Translations under genes and position numbers: made by a program
In this document: piece by piece, positions 2,859 to 34,767 of the stretch
Layout: every line of letters starts with the position of its first letter
Position numbering within the stretch: position 1 is the first letter of the stretch
Assembly: GCA_903863935.1 (NCBI GenBank)
Contig: CAIPDV010000075.1
Location: 1 to 34,767 of the forward strand
Direction of reading: 5' to 3'
Length of the DNA: 34,767 nucleotides
Source: an uncultured Bacteroidota bacterium
GTDB lineage: Bacteria > Bacteroidota > Bacteroidia > JABEUT01
Notes under the pieces: generated by a model
The model's database searches: none
What the model was told of the DNA's origin: nothing
Seen by the model: only the letters and a program-made list of their open reading frames with translations

Positions 2859-3281
2859 TTAATTAAAATAAAAGAAGAAAAACACAACAGCAGCCCAGCC
2901 TTTAGGAACACCACTTGCGCTTCCAATGCTGCTGCCCGAGCTATTACGCACGGTTCCATCGCTTTCAATTTTGCCTATGCTGCTGCCCGATTCGTTACGT
3001 ACAGTTCCATCGTCTTCAACCTTGCCAACGCTGCTGCCCGAACCGTTACGGATAGTTCCGTCTGATTCAATTTTGCCGATGCTGCTGCCTGAACTGTTGC
3101 GAATGGTTCCGTCTGATTCAATTTTACCAACACTACTGCCCGAGCTATTGCGGATGGTACCGTCCGATTCTATTTTTCCGGTACTGCTGCCCGATGAATT
3201 TCGGATTTCCTGGGCTGAAAGATTGGTACTGCCGATAAATAAAAGTAAAGAAACGCTTAGTAAAGAGATAAGTTTTTTCAT
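2859..3281 (-). CDS. Secreted 15-residue-repeat protein (5-fold beta-flower-like), 140 aa
   Basis: An N-terminal signal peptide (MKKLISLLSVSLLLF..LSAQ, about residues 1-24) is followed by six near-identical 15-residue repeats with the pattern IRN-SGSS-GKIE-DGT. The protein then ends with GVPKGWAAVVFFFFYFN, a hydrophobic tail. The repeat and the GWAAVVFFFF ending match what is annotated in Bacteroidota as a 5-fold beta-flower protein (from memory). The repeats differ slightly (one has GSG, one VEDDGTV, one NES), so they have drifted after duplication of a 45-bp unit. The likely location is periplasm or cell surface. No enzymatic residues are evident and the function is unknown. A perfect -7 promoter box lies 43 bases upstream. 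Confidence 0.85.
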   Translation of the reverse strand: MKKLISLLSVSLLLFIGSTNLSAQEIRNSSGSSTGKIESDGTIRNSSGSSVGKIESDGTIRNSSGSSIGKIESDGTIRNGSGSSVGKVEDDGTVRNESGSSIGKIESDGTVRNSSGSSIGSASGVPKGWAAVVFFFFYFN

Positions 3282-3482: not shown

Positions 3483-4820
3483 TTAGTTTTTCACCACTTT
3501 CTTCAACGCCAATGTTGCCCCTTCTTTCGAAACAATTCTCAGCAGGAACATTCCATCTGCGAAGTTGGACATGTTGAATTGCATAAAGTTTGATTCCAGG
3601 TTGATTTTGGTTTCTATCAGTTTTCCGGTTACATCATACAATTGTACCGTTGAACCCTGGGTAATGCCTTCTAGCGTAAATATGCCATTGCTCGGATTTG
3701 GATAAACAGTCAACTGTCCGTTGTCAACTGCCAACTTGTTAATACCTGTGGTAACATTGGTTAACATTCTTATTCTGTCGTTGGTATAATCAGGTATGTA
3801 TGCATTTCCATAAATATCCAGTGAAACACCCATGATGTTATCCATTTCAGCCGCAGTGGCAGGTCCGCCATCACCTGAAAAGCCCTGAATACCGTTACCT
3901 GCAATAGTTGAGATAATGCCGCTTGTATTCACCATACGAATACGGACATTCACTTCATCGGAGATAAACAGATTTCCCGAACCATCCACAAAAATCCCAT
4001 CGGGCCAATTTAATTCAGCTGAACTGGCAGCTCCGCCGTCACCCGAAAAACCAGGTGTTCCATTACCTGCATAGGTGGAAATGACTCCGGACGTATTTAC
4101 CATACGTACCCGATCATTAAAATAATCACCAATATAAACATTGCCTGCTGCATCAGCACTCACGCTTACGGGGTAATTCAGTTCCTTAGATGTAGCAGGT
4201 GCTCCATCGCCATTATAGCCGGGAGTTCCGTTTCCGGCAAAGGTTGAAATGATTCCGGAAGTGTTCACCATACGAATACGGTGATTGTTCCCGTCTGCTA
4301 TATAAAAATTTCCTGAAGGGTCTTGTGTTACGCCTCCAACCGTGTTAAACTCAGCCACAGTAGCTTGTCCTCCATCACCTGAGAAGCCACTAATACCGTT
4401 TCCCGCAAAGGTTGAAATGATTCCGCTTGTGTTCACTATTCGTATGCGGCTGTCGCCTGAAATATAAATATTACCTGCAGCATCAGCATACACCTCTGTC
4501 GGTTGATTTATTTCAGCAGAGGTAGCAGCTCCGCCATCACCCGAAAAGCCCTGCGTTCCATTCCCTGCAAAGGTTGAAATAATGCCACTGGTGTTTACCA
4601 TACGGATACGTTCGTTATCAATATCAGCTATATAAACATTTCCGGCTGCATCTACAGTTGTGCTATATGGATAAAACAATTTAGCCGAAGTGGCAGCAGT
4701 TCCATCCCCGGAAAAACCAAGAGAGCCGGTACCTGCAAATGTACTGATGGTGTATGTTTGGGAGAACGATAAAACTGAAAAGCTAAAAACTGATAATGAG
4801 AGAACAAGTAGTTTTTTCAT
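3483..4820 (-). CDS. NHL-repeat beta-propeller protein with T9SS sorting domain, 445 aa
   Basis: The start is set at 4820 (MKKLLVLSLSVF..SFSQ signal peptide). The open frame runs on to 4907, but a perfect -7 box at 4847-4854 lies inside that extension. After the signal come about six units of ~56 residues, each with the pattern ISTFAGNG-GFSGDGG-AT-AE, then DAAGNVYI-D-N-RIRMVNTSG. These are NHL propeller blades, probably one closed six-bladed propeller. The C-terminus (about 365-445) is a type A sorting domain with QLTVYPNPSNG, VQLYDVTGKLIE and FADGMFLLRIVS. The protein is expected on the outer surface or released, perhaps binding a protein or glycan; the ligand is not predictable. It is a paralogue of the gene at 31995-33347. 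Confidence 0.9.
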   Translation of the reverse strand: MKKLLVLSLSVFSFSVLSFSQTYTISTFAGTGSLGFSGDGTAATSAKLFYPYSTTVDAAGNVYIADIDNERIRMVNTSGIISTFAGNGTQGFSGDGGAATSAEINQPTEVYADAAGNIYISGDSRIRIVNTSGIISTFAGNGISGFSGDGGQATVAEFNTVGGVTQDPSGNFYIADGNNHRIRMVNTSGIISTFAGNGTPGYNGDGAPATSKELNYPVSVSADAAGNVYIGDYFNDRVRMVNTSGVISTYAGNGTPGFSGDGGAASSAELNWPDGIFVDGSGNLFISDEVNVRIRMVNTSGIISTIAGNGIQGFSGDGGPATAAEMDNIMGVSLDIYGNAYIPDYTNDRIRMLTNVTTGINKLAVDNGQLTVYPNPSNGIFTLEGITQGSTVQLYDVTGKLIETKINLESNFMQFNMSNFADGMFLLRIVSKEGATLALKKVVKN

Positions 4821-4846
4821 AGCGGGGAAAGTATTAATGGTTGAAG

Positions 4847-4854
4847 CAAAAATA
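4847..4854 (-). promoter_or_regulatory. -7 promoter box (TATTTTTG) of the NHL gene
   Basis: A perfect TAnnTTTG match on the minus strand, 27 bases before the ATG at 4820. It fixes that start over the longer frame. Confidence 0.6.
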
Positions 4855-5068
4855 GCGATTAGATTTGAGAAAACCAAAAGAGAAAAGTGATGTCGGGTTA
4901 AAACCATTGTTCGTTTTTATGCTCTCGCTCCCACACTCATTTTGTATCCTTAAGGTGCCTACCTTCTACCCTACCCAAAAAATATTTTTCCAAAATTGTC
5001 CGGTTATAGAAAACCTATTCGTCATAGGAGTGTAATTCAAATGTTCAAATACTTAAAAAACAATTAAA

Positions 5069-14306: not shown

Positions 14307-14352
14307 TTCTGCTGCAAGCATATTTATTTAGTTGCGTAAAACTTACCTCTGA

Positions 14353-14387
14353 TTACTGACAACTGACTACTGACAACTGACTACTGT
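14353..14387. repeat. Heptameric tandem repeat (CNACTGA), five units
   Basis: Five consecutive 7-base units: TTACTGA, CAACTGA, CTACTGA, CAACTGA, CTACTGT. The block ends one base before the last codon of the ABC transporter gene. It has the same 7-base period as the blocks at 16244, 16298, 32088, 32161, 33504 and 33576. Confidence 0.85.
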
Positions 14388-16241
14388 TTAAACAAAACTC
14401 TGCAAGTCGTAGAGTCTTCTGTAAACGCCATTTTGAGCCAGTAAGGCTGCGTGATTGCCACGTTCCACAATATTACCTTTTTGCATAACAATAATTTCAT
14501 CGGCATTTTTAATGGTGGAAAGGCGGTGTGCAATAACAATAGAAGTGCGGTTCGTCATCAGCTTGGTAAGAGCATCCTGTACCAGACGCTCCGATTCGGT
14601 ATCGAGTGCTGAGGTAGCCTCATCAAGAATAAGGATAGGCGGATTTTTCAGGATGGCACGGGCAAGGCTCATCCGCTGGCGTTCGCCACCCGACATCTTC
14701 CCTCCCCTATCGCCAATATTGGTTTCATATCCATTTTCCATCTTGCTTATAAACTCATGGGCATGGGCTACTTTGGCGGCACTTATAACCTGTTCATCGG
14801 TAACATCGGTCATACCAAATGCAATGTTGTTTTTCACGGTATCGTTAAAAAGAACGGTGTCCTGGGTTACAATACCCATCAGGTTTCTAAGATCTGAGAT
14901 CTTTAATTGGTTCAACGAAATTCCATCAATGGTTATAAGGCCTTCGGTAGGATCGTAAAAGCGGGGCAGCATATCTACCAGCGTACTTTTTCCGGAGCCT
15001 GATTGACCTACGATTGCTATTGTTTTCCCTTTCGGAATTTTAAGGCTTATGTTTTGCAACGCATATCCTGAATCGCCACGCTGGTATGCAAACCCCACAT
15101 TATGGAATTCAATTTCCTTATCGAATGATTTTACCAGGCGAGGCTCTTCAATTTCAATAACTGTAACCTCAGCATGAAGTATCTTATTTATCCTTTCCAG
15201 TGAAGCCAGGCCTTTTTCAACATTGAAGTAAGCCGTAGAAAAGGCTTTTGCCGGTGGAACCAACTGCGAAAAAATTACCACATAGGTTACAAACAAAGGG
15301 CCATCGAGCGGGTGTGTAGGACTCCAAACCAAATGCCCGCCAACATACAGAAGTATTGCCAGCACAATAGATACAAGAAACTCGGTAAGCGGAGAAGCAA
15401 GGTCCGTCCTTCTGTATACACCGTTCATGATACCTGTGTACCGCTCATTCTCTTCATGGAATTTTGTGCGGATGATCTTTTCGGCTGTAAACGCCCGGAT
15501 GATTCGTATTCCACCAATGGTTTCCTCAATCATGGAAAACAAAACACCCATCATACCCTTCGACTTGGAAGAGCTTTTACGAAGGGTACCACCTACTTTT
15601 GCAATAAGAAATCCGGTAACAGGCAGCAGAATAAATGCCAGCAAAGTCAACTGAGGGCTCATAAAAATAAGGGTTACCAGAGTAACAATAATATTCATCG
15701 GGTTCACCGTTATCATTTCCAGCGATTGCATAACCGACCACTCAATTTCAGTAAGGTCATTGGTCATGCGCGCCATAATGTCGCCTTTGCGCTCGGCTGA
15801 ATAATACGATAGCGGCAGCACCAAAATCTTATCGTAAATTTCATTGCGCAGATCACGTACAACTCCATTCCTGATTGGAGCCATATTATATGCTGCCATA
15901 TAACGAAACGCATTTTTAAGAAGCATAATAATTGCAAAGAATACGCAAAGAATAATGAGTACATACTGCAACCCGTATCTATCCGTAAGAAGCTGCATAT
16001 AATATTTGGAAGAATCGGACAACCATGCGCCTACTTTGTTAAGGTGAAATTCAGGCTTGGATAAAACAGAAACCGTGCTAACAGCAGAATCTTTCGAAGG
16101 GAAAAGAACATTCAAAAAAGGGATAAGCATTCCCAGGGAAAACAACCCGAAAATGATTGACAGCATATTGCCGACTATATTAAGAACAGCGTATTTCTTA
16201 TAGTTTTTTAAATAACGAAGAATTTTTCCGAGGCCCTTCAA
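14388..16241 (-). CDS. MsbA-type ABC exporter, fused permease and ATPase, 617 aa
   Basis: Residues about 15-330 carry six transmembrane helices of an ABC exporter (type IV fold), and 375-610 the nucleotide-binding domain. The domain has Walker A GQSGSGKST (near 411-419), Q-loop VTQD, signature MSGGERQR, Walker B ILILDEATSALD (near 536-547) and switch His in IAHRLST. It should work as a homodimer in the inner membrane, driving export of a lipid or hydrophobic compound. The substrate is not decided by sequence. The start codon is TTG at 16241 with an in-frame stop immediately before it, and a heptamer repeat block reaches to within three bases of it. No ATG lies near the conserved N-terminus. 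Confidence 0.92.
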   Translation of the reverse strand: MKGLGKILRYLKNYKKYAVLNIVGNMLSIIFGLFSLGMLIPFLNVLFPSKDSAVSTVSVLSKPEFHLNKVGAWLSDSSKYYMQLLTDRYGLQYVLIILCVFFAIIMLLKNAFRYMAAYNMAPIRNGVVRDLRNEIYDKILVLPLSYYSAERKGDIMARMTNDLTEIEWSVMQSLEMITVNPMNIIVTLVTLIFMSPQLTLLAFILLPVTGFLIAKVGGTLRKSSSKSKGMMGVLFSMIEETIGGIRIIRAFTAEKIIRTKFHEENERYTGIMNGVYRRTDLASPLTEFLVSIVLAILLYVGGHLVWSPTHPLDGPLFVTYVVIFSQLVPPAKAFSTAYFNVEKGLASLERINKILHAEVTVIEIEEPRLVKSFDKEIEFHNVGFAYQRGDSGYALQNISLKIPKGKTIAIVGQSGSGKSTLVDMLPRFYDPTEGLITIDGISLNQLKISDLRNLMGIVTQDTVLFNDTVKNNIAFGMTDVTDEQVISAAKVAHAHEFISKMENGYETNIGDRGGKMSGGERQRMSLARAILKNPPILILDEATSALDTESERLVQDALTKLMTNRTSIVIAHRLSTIKNADEIIVMQKGNIVERGNHAALLAQNGVYRRLYDLQSFV

Positions 16242-16243
16242 TT

Positions 16244-16278
16244 AATTAGGAATTAGGAATTAGTAATTAGTAATTCAG
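16244..16278. repeat. Heptameric tandem repeat (AATTAGG), five units
   Basis: Units AATTAGG, AATTAGG, AATTAGT, AATTAGT, AATTCAG run without interruption. The block begins three bases upstream of the TTG start of the ABC exporter and so fills its translation-initiation region. Confidence 0.9.
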
Positions 16279-16297: not shown

Positions 16298-16332
16298 AAT
16301 GAAGAATGAAGAATGAAAAATTAAGAATTCTT
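16298..16332. repeat. Heptameric tandem repeat (AATGAAG), five units
   Basis: Units AATGAAG, AATGAAG, AATGAAA, AATTAAG, AATTCTT. A second, different 7-base family in the same intergenic gap as the AATTAGG block; the same two families recur in the coding sequence near 32.1 kb. Confidence 0.9.
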
Positions 16333-31573: not shown

Positions 31574-31843
31574 CTAAAAGGTGGGTGAATGGATTGTTTC
31601 ACTTCCGCTCTCCTCGAGCTGCAAATAGAAAAAGAGAAACTTTCGTTTCTCTTTTTCTATTTGCTCTGAGGTCCCGAGCGGATTGCGCTGCATTCCACTC
31701 TTCTCAAGTTGCAAATGAAAAAAGGAAACTTGTCGTTTCCTTTTCTTCATTTACTCTGAGGTCCCAAGCGGATTGCGCTGCATTCCGCTCTTCTCAAGTT
31801 GCAAATGAAAAAAGGAAACTTATCGTTTCCTTTTCTTCATTTA
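31574..31843. repeat. 90-bp tandem repeats carrying a tRNA-Cys tail and a long hairpin
   Basis: Three units (31574-31663, 31664-31753, 31754-31843) precede tRNA-Cys. Units 2 and 3 differ at 3 of 90 bases; unit 1 is older and more diverged. Units 2 and 3 begin with CTCTGAGGTCCCGAGCGGAT or nearly so, which is the 3' end of tRNA-Cys plus flank on the opposite strand. Each unit contains a ~44-base hairpin: in unit 1 GCAAATAGAAAAAGAGAAAC (31621-31640) pairs perfectly with 31645-31664; in units 2 and 3 the stem is AAAGGAAAC/GTTTCCTTT-based. Confidence 0.9.
31621..31664. terminator. 20-bp perfect hairpin, likely terminator
   Basis: A perfect 20-bp stem with a TTTC loop, 53 bases after the DUF5681-like stop. 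Its T-rich right arm suits plus-strand termination; on the minus strand it is the last of three hairpins after tRNA-Cys. Confidence 0.7.
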
Positions 31844-31844
31844 C
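31801..31844 (-). terminator. Hairpin directly downstream of tRNA-Cys
   Basis: Read on the minus strand it follows the tRNA end by about five bases, with stem AAAAGGAAAC and GTTTCCTTTT around GATAA and a run of T. It is the expected end of the tRNA-Cys transcript, and the same hairpin is repeated at 31711-31754. Confidence 0.75.
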
Positions 31845-31848
31845 TCTG

Positions 31849-31919
31849 AGGTCCCGAGCGGATTCGAACCGCTGTACAAGGTTTTGCAGACCTCTGCCTA
31901 GCCACTCGGCCACAGGACC
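31849..31919 (-). tRNA. tRNA-Cys (anticodon GCA)
   Basis: A 71-base tRNA on the minus strand. The acceptor GGTCCTG pairs with CGGGACC (one G-U), with U73 as usual for tRNA-Cys. The anticodon loop CTGCAAA carries GCA (complement at 31885-31887), and the T-loop is TTCGAAT. No CCA is encoded. Confidence 0.95.
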
Positions 31920-31994: not shown

Positions 31995-33347
31995 CTACTC
32001 CTTAATCAGTTTCCCCTCACCTACCAGCTCACCACTTTGCGAAACTACCCTATAAAGGTATATTCCATTGGGATGGGAGCTGATATTAATTAGGAATTGA
32101 GAATTAGGAATTAGGAATTTAGCGAACACTTTTTCGCCAAGCACATTGTACACCTCAATATTCTTCATTCTTAATTCTTCATTCTTCATTGAAATAGTGA
32201 ACACACCATTAGAAGGGTTCGGATAAACGGTAAGCTTATCATTGCTCGCTGTTAACTGTTTTGTTGAACTAGTAAGGTTGGTAAGCTTGCGAATGCGGTT
32301 ATTACCCCAGTCGCCCATAAATACATTGCCCGATGGGTCTACACAAACACTCCAGGGTGAACTTATCTCTGCCGAAGTGGCAGGGCCTCCGTCGCCATAG
32401 AACCCGTTATGGCCATCGCCTCCAACGGTTGAAATGTTACCTGAAGGGTCCACCATGCGGATGCGCATATTATTATCACCTATGAATACATTGCCCATTG
32501 CATCTACAGCCACCCCTATTGGTTGATACATTTCTGAAGCCGTGGCAGGGCCTCCGTCGCCGTTATAACCCTGAACCGTATTTCCTGCAAAGGTTGATAT
32601 GATTCCGCTTGTATTTACTTTACGAATGCAGTTATTTACTTCATCATCTAAATATATATTGCCGGCAGCATCTACTGCAACACCATTCGGATCGTATACT
32701 TCAGCAGCCGTAGCCTGGCCTCCGTCTCCTGAATACCCCGCTACTCCGTTTCCGGCAATGGTAGTAATTATTCCACTTGTGTTAACCATGCGGATACGTT
32801 CATTCCCTTCATCGGAAATATAAAGGTTACCGGATGCGTCCAAGGCCACACCCTGAGGATTGAATAGTTCTGCATTTGTAGCTGCAATATTATCGCCGTT
32901 ATAACCACCGGTTCCATTACCGGCATAGGTAGAGATAATTCCGGATGTATTCACCATGCGAATGCGGTGGTTGAAAAAATCGGATATATATATATTGCCT
33001 GAAATATCTACTGTAACACCCCGAACATAATTCACTTCGGCCGCAGTGGCTGCACCACCGTCACCTGAATAGCCTGCAACTCCGTTTCCGGCAACGGTTG
33101 ATATAATGCCTGTGGTATTCACCATTCGCACCCGGTTGTTCGAATAATCAGATATATAAATATTTCCCTGAATGTCTACATAAACACCATACGGACCGCT
33201 TAACTCCGCAGTTGTGGCAGCTATACCATCACCATTATACCCTTGCGTGGAGGTTCCTGCAACAGTGCTGATGTCGTATTGGGCCGATGCACCAATGGAA
33301 AGTACTAAACCTATTAACGATGAAAAAACGTAATTTTTTGTTCTCAT
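31995..33347 (-). CDS. NHL-repeat beta-propeller protein with T9SS sorting domain, 450 aa
   Basis: A signal peptide (MRTKNYVFSSLIGLVLSIGASAQ) is followed by six NHL units of ~56 residues (ISTVAGNGVAGYSGDGG-AT-AE, then GNIYISD-N-RIRMVNTSG). The protein ends with a type A sorting domain (LTVYPNPSNG, VYNVLGEKVFA, PNGIYLYRVVS). It is a close relative of the gene at 3483-4820, with the same blade pattern and order. The sorting domain contains two stretches coded by 7-base tandem repeats: EELRMKN (around 32161-32188) and NSQFLIN (around 32088-32122). These are absent from the sister gene, which has EGITQGS and ESNFMQFN there. Exported to the cell surface by T9SS; ligand unknown. Confidence 0.92.
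   Translation of the reverse strand: MRTKNYVFSSLIGLVLSIGASAQYDISTVAGTSTQGYNGDGIAATTAELSGPYGVYVDIQGNIYISDYSNNRVRMVNTTGIISTVAGNGVAGYSGDGGAATAAEVNYVRGVTVDISGNIYISDFFNHRIRMVNTSGIISTYAGNGTGGYNGDNIAATNAELFNPQGVALDASGNLYISDEGNERIRMVNTSGIITTIAGNGVAGYSGDGGQATAAEVYDPNGVAVDAAGNIYLDDEVNNCIRKVNTSGIISTFAGNTVQGYNGDGGPATASEMYQPIGVAVDAMGNVFIGDNNMRIRMVDPSGNISTVGGDGHNGFYGDGGPATSAEISSPWSVCVDPSGNVFMGDWGNNRIRKLTNLTSSTKQLTASNDKLTVYPNPSNGVFTISMKNEELRMKNIEVYNVLGEKVFAKFLIPNSQFLINISSHPNGIYLYRVVSQSGELVGEGKLIKE
32088..32122. repeat. Heptameric repeat (AATTAGG) inside the NHL gene
   Basis: Units AATTAGG, AATTGAG, AATTAGG, AATTAGG, AATTTAG on the plus strand. It codes on the minus strand for LIPNSQFLIN in the sorting domain. 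The same sequence family as the intergenic block at 16244-16278. Confidence 0.85.
32161..32188. repeat. Heptameric repeat (TTCTTCA) inside the NHL gene
   Basis: Units TTCTTCA, TTCTTAA, TTCTTCA, TTCTTCA on the plus strand, coding for KNEELRMKN on the minus strand. This is the complement of the AATGAAG/AATTAAG family at 16298-16332. Confidence 0.85.
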
Positions 33348-33406: not shown

Positions 33407-34767
33407 TTATTTTTCGATACTTAATTTGCCTTCACCCAGTAGGCCACCATTTACCGAAACTACTTTATAAAAGTATATTCCGTTGGGCTGACCTGATAAA
33501 TTAATGTTGGATGTTGAATGTTGAATGGTGCACTGAGAATACACTTTTTCTCCGAGAACGTTGTATACCTCAATATTCTTCATTCTTAATTCTTCATTCT
33601 TAATTGAAAAAGTGAACTTGCCATTTGAAGGGTTCGGAAAAACTGTCAATTGTCCATTATCAATTGCCCACTTTTTTGTTCCTGTTTCTACACCCGCCGA
33701 CCTGAAAATTACACCATAGCTTGCGGTTCCGCCAAAGTAGGTCATGCCATAAAACACATTGTCGGAAAGGGTTAGGGTTCCGTAAGGTGTAGAACCGTTT
33801 GCACCGTTAAAATCCCAGAGGTCGGTAAATCCGCTTCCGCTTGTATCTATTGAGAATATAAGTCCTACGCTGTTCAAGGCACCTTGGGTGGTCATTCCAT
33901 AAAGCAAATTCCCCGACTGAATTAAAGAACCATAAGGATAGGCACCATCGGTAAAATTGAAATCATACAGGTCTTTAAACCCCGTACCATTCGTATCAAT
34001 GCAGAAAATATTACCAACCGCATTAGCACCGCCTTGTTCGGTCATACCATATAATCTGCCACCTATCAGTGTGAGATCTCCATCGGGATATGCGCCATTA
34101 ATCCCATTAAAACTGATGAGATTCATAAATGCAGTACCGTTTGTATCCATCGAAAAAACATTACCGTAAGCCAAAGTACCGCCATCAAATGTCATTCCGT
34201 ATATTTTTTTACCTAAAACTAATACCTCCCCATTGGGATGAGAGCCACTGTTGCCGTATAAGTTTAAGAGTAACTTAAATCTGCTTCCATCTGTATCTAC
34301 TGAAAAAATAACCCCTGATCCGGCCGTGCCTCCATACGAGGTCATTCCATACAATTTATTATCCGATCGCGTTAATGAGCCATAGGGGCGGGCTCCGTTC
34401 GTACTATTAAAATCGGTAAGGTCTTTGTAATTACTGCCATCTGTGTCTACACTGAATATACAGCCTTTTGCTCCGCCTCCACCATAGGTCGTCATACCAT
34501 ACAATATTCCACTGGAAAGCAGTAAGGAACCACTCGGGTTAGCACCATTGGTACCATTGAAATCAAGGATATCTTTATAGTTACTTCCATTTGTATCCAT
34601 CGAAAAAACACAACCGTTGCCGTAAGCCCCGCCATTTCCGGTCATGCGGTAAACTTTTCTGCCTAACACGGTTACATTACCTAAGTATGGATAACCGCCA
34701 TTGGTATCATTGAAATTGAGAATTACTTTATACTGTGCATCACACAAAAAGGTGATGAGTGAAAAGA
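33407..34767 (-). CDS. GloVer-repeat protein with T9SS sorting domain, 5' truncated
   Basis: The frame is open to the right edge of the window and reads FSLITFLCDAQYKVIL there, the end of a signal peptide, so only a few N-terminal residues are missing; the TTG at 34747 is not the start. About eight repeats of ~45 residues follow (DFNGTNGA-P-G-L, LYGMT-YGG, G-IFS-DT-GS), matching what is called a choice-of-anchor tandem repeat GloVer protein; a propeller is likely. The C-terminus is a type A sorting domain (LTVFPNPSNGKF, VYNVLGEKVYS, PNGIYFYKVVS). It also holds two heptamer-coded stretches, as in the neighbouring NHL gene 59 bases downstream. Surface-exposed or released; function unknown. Confidence 0.9.
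   Translation of the reverse strand, partial: FSLITFLCDAQYKVILNFNDTNGGYPYLGNVTVLGRKVYRMTGNGGAYGNGCVFSMDTNGSNYKDILDFNGTNGANPSGSLLLSSGILYGMTTYGGGGAKGCIFSVDTDGSNYKDLTDFNSTNGARPYGSLTRSDNKLYGMTSYGGTAGSGVIFSVDTDGSRFKLLLNLYGNSGSHPNGEVLVLGKKIYGMTFDGGTLAYGNVFSMDTNGTAFMNLISFNGINGAYPDGDLTLIGGRLYGMTEQGGANAVGNIFCIDTNGTGFKDLYDFNFTDGAYPYGSLIQSGNLLYGMTTQGALNSVGLIFSIDTSGSGFTDLWDFNGANGSTPYGTLTLSDNVFYGMTYFGGTASYGVIFRSAGVETGTKKWAIDNGQLTVFPNPSNGKFTFSIKNEELRMKNIEVYNVLGEKVYSQCTIQHSTSNINLSGQPNGIYFYKVVSVNGGLLGEGKLSIEK
33504..33531. repeat. Heptameric repeat (ATGTTGA) inside the GloVer gene
   Basis: Units ATGTTGG, ATGTTGA, ATGTTGA, ATGGTGC on the plus strand, coding for QHSTSNIN on the minus strand in the sorting domain. 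Confidence 0.75.
33576..33603. repeat. Heptameric repeat (TTCTTCA/TTCTTAA) inside the GloVer gene
   Basis: Units TTCTTCA, TTCTTAA, TTCTTCA, TTCTTAA, coding for KNEELRMKN. Same place in the sorting domain and same family as 32161-32188. Confidence 0.85.

Follow-up and report, generated by a model that had tools for sequence, protein, structure and literature searches.

TAACTGA heptamers are known from Beggiatoaceae, Cyanobacteria and Bacteroidetes, where they are mostly intergenic and located near start codons, with a minority in ORFs, mainly at protein ends (MacGregor 2015, PMC4679880). The GGGNATC heptamers of Xanthomonas and Nostoc have been proposed to form quadruplexes, and their coding copies are under-represented (PMC4692102). 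Intergenic heptamers with occasional copies in ORFs are thus already published. The palindromic elements of Rickettsia, ~150 bp long, are inserted in unrelated metabolic genes (Ogata 2000, 2002, reviewed in PMC10969869).

The repeats described here lie in genes of secreted Bacteroidota proteins, and they resemble the TAACTGA repeats in their 7-bp tandem units and in being mostly intergenic (PMC4679880). They differ in their many unit families, in their position at two fixed sites of a domain and in signal peptides, and in the arrangement of the intergenic arrays as inverted pairs. An assignment to the TAACTGA family proper was rejected, as the units in the gene are of the AATTAGG and AATGAAG types and a related array, of the ACTGACA type, occurs only at 14349-14386. 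With the GGGNATC heptamers they share the heptameric unit, the dispersal, the mostly intergenic position and about four units per array, whereas the sequence class is different, GGGNATC being G-rich (PMC4692102). Like the Rickettsia elements (PMC10969869), they include dispersed palindromic repeats in frame inside coding genes; unlike them, short tracts appear to replace sequence in secretion signals, with no gain in length. We also rejected an identity with such elements, which measure about 100-150 bp and lengthen the protein, since our arrays span about 31 bp and the sites are equally long with and without them. A Porphyromonas gingivalis MITE with an internal minisatellite (PMC4596501) likewise combines tandem and inverted repeats in a Bacteroidota genome; a MITE was rejected because the inverted arms here enclose unrelated spacers with no conserved core. 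The host domain is by profile and fold an ordinary T9SS type A member (TIGR04183 / PF18962; PMC10994853), the difference being that repeat DNA codes for two of its segments in some of the copies. In the literature covered, which lacked most subscription papers and preprints, we found no report of repeats that recur at defined structural positions in a secretion domain or in signal peptides.

The window, that is, the whole stretch of DNA analyzed, is a contig of 34,767 nucleotides from an uncultured Bacteroidota bacterium, whose features are collected in the table. The genome (G000, 3.76 Mb) has at least 150 T9SS sorting domains and 33 NHL paralogues. Two longer tandem repeats were also seen in the window: a 90-bp unit in 2.9 copies (31603-31864), adjoining tRNA-Cys (31848-31919), each copy repeating the 3' end of the tRNA gene, and a 51-bp unit, a multiple of 3, in about 5 copies (2923-3194) within ORFs on both strands.

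Features of the window that carry heptamer arrays or serve as controls
Feature	Position	Strand	Remarks
NHL-repeat protein gene, 450 aa, C-terminal T9SS type A sorting domain	31995-33347	-	NHL PF01436; PF18962 E 2.9e-13; TIGR04183 E 5.3e-10
Sorting domain of NHL gene (PF18962 match)	32022-32228	-	AlphaFold2 pLDDT 90.6; closest solved fold 8glk
NHL gene, site 1 array, AATGAAG x2 - AATTAAG - AATGAAG, codes MKNEELRMKN	32160-32190	-	between strands 2 and 3 (model)
NHL gene, site 2 array, AATTCCT x2 - AATTCTC - AATTCCT, codes FLIPNSQFLIN	32088-32119	-	strand 4, turn, strand 5 (model)
Adjoining secreted-protein gene, GloVer repeats (TIGR03803) and sorting domain, runs past contig end	33407-34765	-	arrays at same two sites
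Site 1 array of gene 33407-34765, AATTAAG/AATGAAG, codes IKNEELRMKN	33575-33605	-	redraw P 4e-4
Site 2 array of gene 33407-34765, CATTCAA type, codes TIQHSTSNI	33503-33527	-	redraw P 6e-4
NHL paralogue, sorting domain without arrays, internal control	3483-4907	-	PF18962 at 3495-3707
Intergenic AATTAGG array	16244-16275	+	2 bp from end of gene 14388-16241
Intergenic AATGAAG array	16298-16329	+	same gap as array 16244-16275
Intergenic ACTGACA-type array, resembles published TAACTGA heptamers (PMC4679880)	14349-14386		1 bp after stop of minus-strand gene 14388-16241

The sorting domain of the NHL gene exceeds both profile cut-offs (PF18962, 50.3 bits against 27; TIGR04183, 39.1 bits against 23). 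Read on the forward strand, its site 1 array consists of 4.4 ATTCTTC units, the complement of AATGAAG/AATTAAG, and its site 2 array of 4.6 AATTAGG units; on the coding strand the former ends on a partial AAT and the latter on a partial AATT, FLIPNSQFLIN including its first base pairs. A preliminary description of this DNA had placed both arrays in frame in the sorting domain, with matching repeats in the gap near 16244 and unrelated residues at both places in the paralogue. All of this agrees with our coordinates, translations and profile matches. The observation is thus real, and it was understated; the adjoining gene with arrays at the same two sites had been overlooked.

We compared the domain arrays with DNA outside the domains. 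In the sampled part of the genome, period-7 arrays (score at least 12) reach 0.584 per kb in intergenic DNA, a value inflated because windows were partly chosen by heptamer hits, 0.459 per kb in sorting domains and 0.011 per kb in other coding DNA, densities that place them in the class of dispersed intergenic heptamers. In coding DNA other than sorting domains, the intergenic families are rarer by a factor of about 40, and the periodicity is found at lag 7 only. The DNA of the two sites matches at least 3 intergenic places outside domains in 11 of 106 cases, compared with 2 of 1500 mid-gene windows, and within the domain neither the middle strand (0/53) nor the domain end (0/53) does so, which supports the earlier claim that the repeats in the gene and the intergenic ones are of common DNA families. 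Domain arrays score 17.2 of 21 against intergenic DNA of their own genome and 16.2 of 21 against that of other species (p 0.014), a weak preference. The arrays are best explained as coding copies of heptamer repeats that are dispersed in the genome, mostly between genes.

An alternative is that each array is born locally, when a short seed lying in a tolerant stretch slips or is duplicated in tandem, without transfer from intergenic DNA, and that the units are alike because AT-rich heptamers are favored everywhere. Indeed, the arrays are tandem in nature, heptamers are over-represented in many bacteria (PMC4692102), and the same sites hold many unit families, namely AATTACG/AATTAGG, AATGAAG, AAGTGAA/AAGTTAA, CAGTGGT, AGCCAAT, CATTCAA, TTCACCA, CACTATT and others. 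However, slippage adds length, which the sites have not gained, and the sites match intergenic families of their own genome, including dispersed repeats that are not tandem and that slippage cannot make. Such repeats at the same two sites code for LRSAQDDKV, for LKPVQHDY paired with HPELVS, and for NPRPNGSAGRA, which argues against pure local slippage. We therefore regard local birth as unlikely. Dispersed palindromic repeats (LRSAQDDK, LKPVQHDY, HPELVS, SHPADIAG, LNQAQGDN) were seen at the two sites in loci L121, L124, L147, L201, L205 and L218 of this genome and in L171 and L173 of a relative, and those in one domain sometimes form a matched inverted pair.

The intergenic arrays are mostly inverted pairs, with a partner within 120 bp in 47 of 76 compared with 44 of 495 random 31-mers, and the spacers between the arms are unrelated to one another. 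Read on the sense strand, most arrays that follow a stop within 15 bp are of the purine type (20:6), and most of those preceding a start are of the pyrimidine type (16:4). In the pairs of this genome, the purine arm lies 1-9 bp after the stop and the pyrimidine arm 0-9 bp before the next start (for example G000 C83:24748-24821, C62:40470-40543 and C24:4755-5181), and in some cases an entire small gene (121-123 aa) lies between the two arms. The same order, purine then pyrimidine, is common to the two domain sites, site 1 being purine-rich in a ratio of 31:2 and site 2 pyrimidine-rich in a ratio of 19:3. This arrangement would suit an RNA or DNA hairpin in which the arms around the middle strand pair near the mRNA 3' end, as those of the intergenic pairs would, and the inverted complementarity of sites 1 and 2 is indeed 7.63, against 6.72 ± 0.16 when partners are swapped. 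Yet in domains with heptamers at both sites, the match between the two is no better than with swapped partners (10.6 vs 12.3), the mRNA folding energy lies only 0.5 SD below that of synonymous redraws whether or not arrays are present, and strand choice follows hydropathy too. With unmatched units in the domain and so slight a gain in folding, a hairpin role is a weak rival, and we consider it improbable.

Could the periodicity be a by-product of residues conserved for sorting? The four array segments of the window were redrawn synonymously with the codon usage of the genome and scored at lag 7, and for the NHL gene the observed periodicity was reached with P = 1.5e-4 and 2.7e-3. The genus was represented by 161 T9SS type A sorting domains in 10 genomes, those of the relatives having been selected by similarity to the array-bearing domain and the windows of the genome itself partly by heptamer hits. 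Of these domains, 53 score at least 8 compared with 7.2 expected from synonymous redraws, and 16 score at least 14 compared with 0.3. At lags 4-6 and 8-13 the count stays between 0 and 4 domains, and the increase at lag 14 is an expected one, so that only lags 7 and 14 are clearly prominent. The pattern AATKARGAATKARGAAT occurs 41 times in the 3.76-Mb genome and its reversed control not once. Protein selection finds some support in strings such as NEEL or NSxFxI, which recur between species, and in the regular beta-hairpin modeled at site 2. Against it, redraws rarely match the observed score, most domains of the same fold lack these residues, and the encoded heptads (NYELRIT, NEE*RMK, QWSVVSG, HSTFNIQ, FTIHHSP) are direct translations of the units, the residues shifting jointly with the unit (KNEELRMKN vs VKSEELKVKS). 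The preliminary description had named the same residues coded by non-repetitive codons in distant species as the observation that would speak for protein selection; run as synonymous redraws, this gave the opposite result. A purely protein-selected origin is thus disfavored, indeed quite improbable, and the results support that the period-7 pattern is a property of the DNA and not a by-product of the protein.

All mapped arrays with a score of at least 10 (56/56) lie at the two sites, with none in the other 44% of the domain. The AlphaFold2 model of the sorting domain is an Ig-like beta-sandwich of seven strands, matching best 8glk_D, a solved T9SS substrate sorting domain (TM 0.78). In this model, site 1 is the connection between strands 2 and 3 and site 2 a beta-hairpin, which suggests that the seven-residue period at site 2 makes strand, turn and strand; the "loop regions" of the preliminary description hold for site 1, whereas site 2 is predicted to be strand-turn-strand. 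Translocon structures indicate that the contacting surface of T9SS sorting domains is poorly conserved, one lysine excepted, and that the beta4-beta5 loop varies among conformers (PMC10994853). The poor conservation fits tolerance at the array sites, and the loop is probably the same element as site 2.

Site lengths were taken from the 61 of 161 domains that a regular expression parsed. Site 2 averages 15.1 residues with arrays and 16.0 without, and site 1 averages 16.3 and 15.3, respectively, while PF18962 aligns 69 residues of the array-bearing NHL-gene domain to 70 profile positions, indicating that arrays take the normal length. The proposed insertion is therefore not supported; judging from these lengths and from the shared families, arrays probably replace existing sequence instead of adding to it. 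As to the proposed expandability, adding or losing one 7-bp unit would shift the reading frame. The NHL proteins of the nearest species are at best ~50% identical. As to mobility, dispersal had been its sole basis; the inverted intergenic arms have no conserved core, and, of the 7 Y1_Tnp genes in the genome, the 3 whose loci were read had no heptamers next to them, the RAYT (Y1) transposase being the one that mobilizes REP elements. The preliminary model of expandable or mobile insertions tolerated in loops, which draws on the families shared with intergenic DNA, on three units giving seven residues and on the modeled place of site 1 in a strand connection, is very improbable given the absence of net length gain, the two modeled strands of site 2 and the lack of a conserved core or of a transposase link at these 3 loci.

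Pure AATTAGG, AATTAAG, AATGAAG and CCTAATT arrays are open in no frame because a stop falls every 21 nt. It had been stated that three units code for seven residues in any frame; the arithmetic stands, and these pure arrays are nonetheless closed in every frame. Each array of the NHL gene contains one variant unit, exactly at the position of that stop: the AATTAAG unit of site 1 stands where a pure array gives TGA, and the AATTCTC unit of site 2 where it gives TAA. Putting the common unit in their place yields SMKNEE*RMKNI and KFLIPNS*FLIN. Consistent with this, only 18 of 57 intergenic arrays are open in any of six frames compared with 99% of random intergenic 30-mers, and in the abundant AGTTATR family 16 of 17 are closed. 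Coding arrays are thus a strongly filtered subset.

Genes were simple ORF calls on draft metagenome assemblies. Among signal-peptide-like N-termini, 25 of 544 score at least 8 compared with 4.3 expected, and in gene bodies 1 of 999 does. Across genomes, 17 arrays were classified as other coding, of which 3 lie in sorting domains that the regular expression had missed, about half in signal peptides and 2 at gene 3' ends; an example from a signal peptide is MKKLTIAFSLFILHSSFLILHAQ. Sec signal peptides that owe part of their sequence to pyrimidine-strand heptamers (ILHSSFLILH, FFIFHFSF, FLILNSQFLI) lie in loci L122 (8500-8533), L125 (1495-1524), L155 (289-319), L201 (1660-1697) and L198 (8342-8374). 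In long proteins of other Bacteroidota, a heptamer-coded linker, ETHNSQFTIHNSKVP, occurs in a protein that on visual inspection resembles a restriction specificity subunit (L075, G304 C12), and another, GIQNSKFKIQNSDF, in an ORF of 1006 aa (L070, G049 C11).

Taken together, the reading that we favor, and hold to be probable, is that repeats spread genome-wide, are filtered by stops, hydropathy and fold, and survive where export machines read shape. A DNA process would copy short repeat tracts over existing sequence in many places, which we infer from the site lengths and from the families shared with intergenic DNA; the copying may be due to gene conversion or to template switching during replication, possibly together with slippage in place. 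Selection would then retain only tracts that are free of stops, neutral in length and of the right hydropathy. Their survival in sorting domains and signal peptides may be due to the way in which both are recognized, through fold or hydrophobicity instead of the exact sequence. There the tract would become working protein, serving as a linker at site 1, as a beta-hairpin of seven-residue period at site 2 and as the hydrophobic core in signal peptides. A more far-reaching version, which we put forward tentatively, is an active process akin to gene conversion that continues to overwrite short stretches of genes, where sequence is tolerated, with dispersed repeats. Export signals at both ends of secreted proteins would then be rebuilt from intergenic repeat DNA again and again, and the heptamer would yield a strand-turn module of seven residues suited to the sorting-domain fold.

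Profile searches, in which 11 species of one genus represent the order, give a score of at least 8 for 18 of 118 domains in the genome itself (7 of at least 12), for 28 of 87 in the genus, a set chosen by similarity and thus biased, and for 4 of 77 in other families of the class (2 of at least 12). The contrast between own genome and outgroup is modest (p = 0.037). The rate in the other families is close to the synonymous null, suggesting that the phenomenon belongs mainly to this lineage and leaves traces elsewhere, and the mapped outgroup arrays also lie at the same two domain sites. Across the phylum, intergenic heptamers occur in 137 of 395 genomes and are mostly intergenic at the loci read. 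A strict NYEL pattern matched only one MAG in a scan of named genomes (JABDCA010000003/4), and a DNA pattern of heptamers with the conserved strand matched none of the 395 genomes, but it also matched nothing in the genome under study and is therefore uninformative.

In conclusion, a single domain family offers many cases in which non-coding repeats become working protein, and the system has internal controls in the same fold without repeats, in synonymous nulls and in the stop-codon filter. A general question, which parts of proteins tolerate nearly arbitrary DNA, thus becomes testable. The finding explains odd strings in secreted proteins of Bacteroidota, such as KNEELRMKN, NYELGITN, NSQFLIN and SQQLIANS, which could be mistaken for conserved motifs, and it bears on the diversification of large sorting-domain families.
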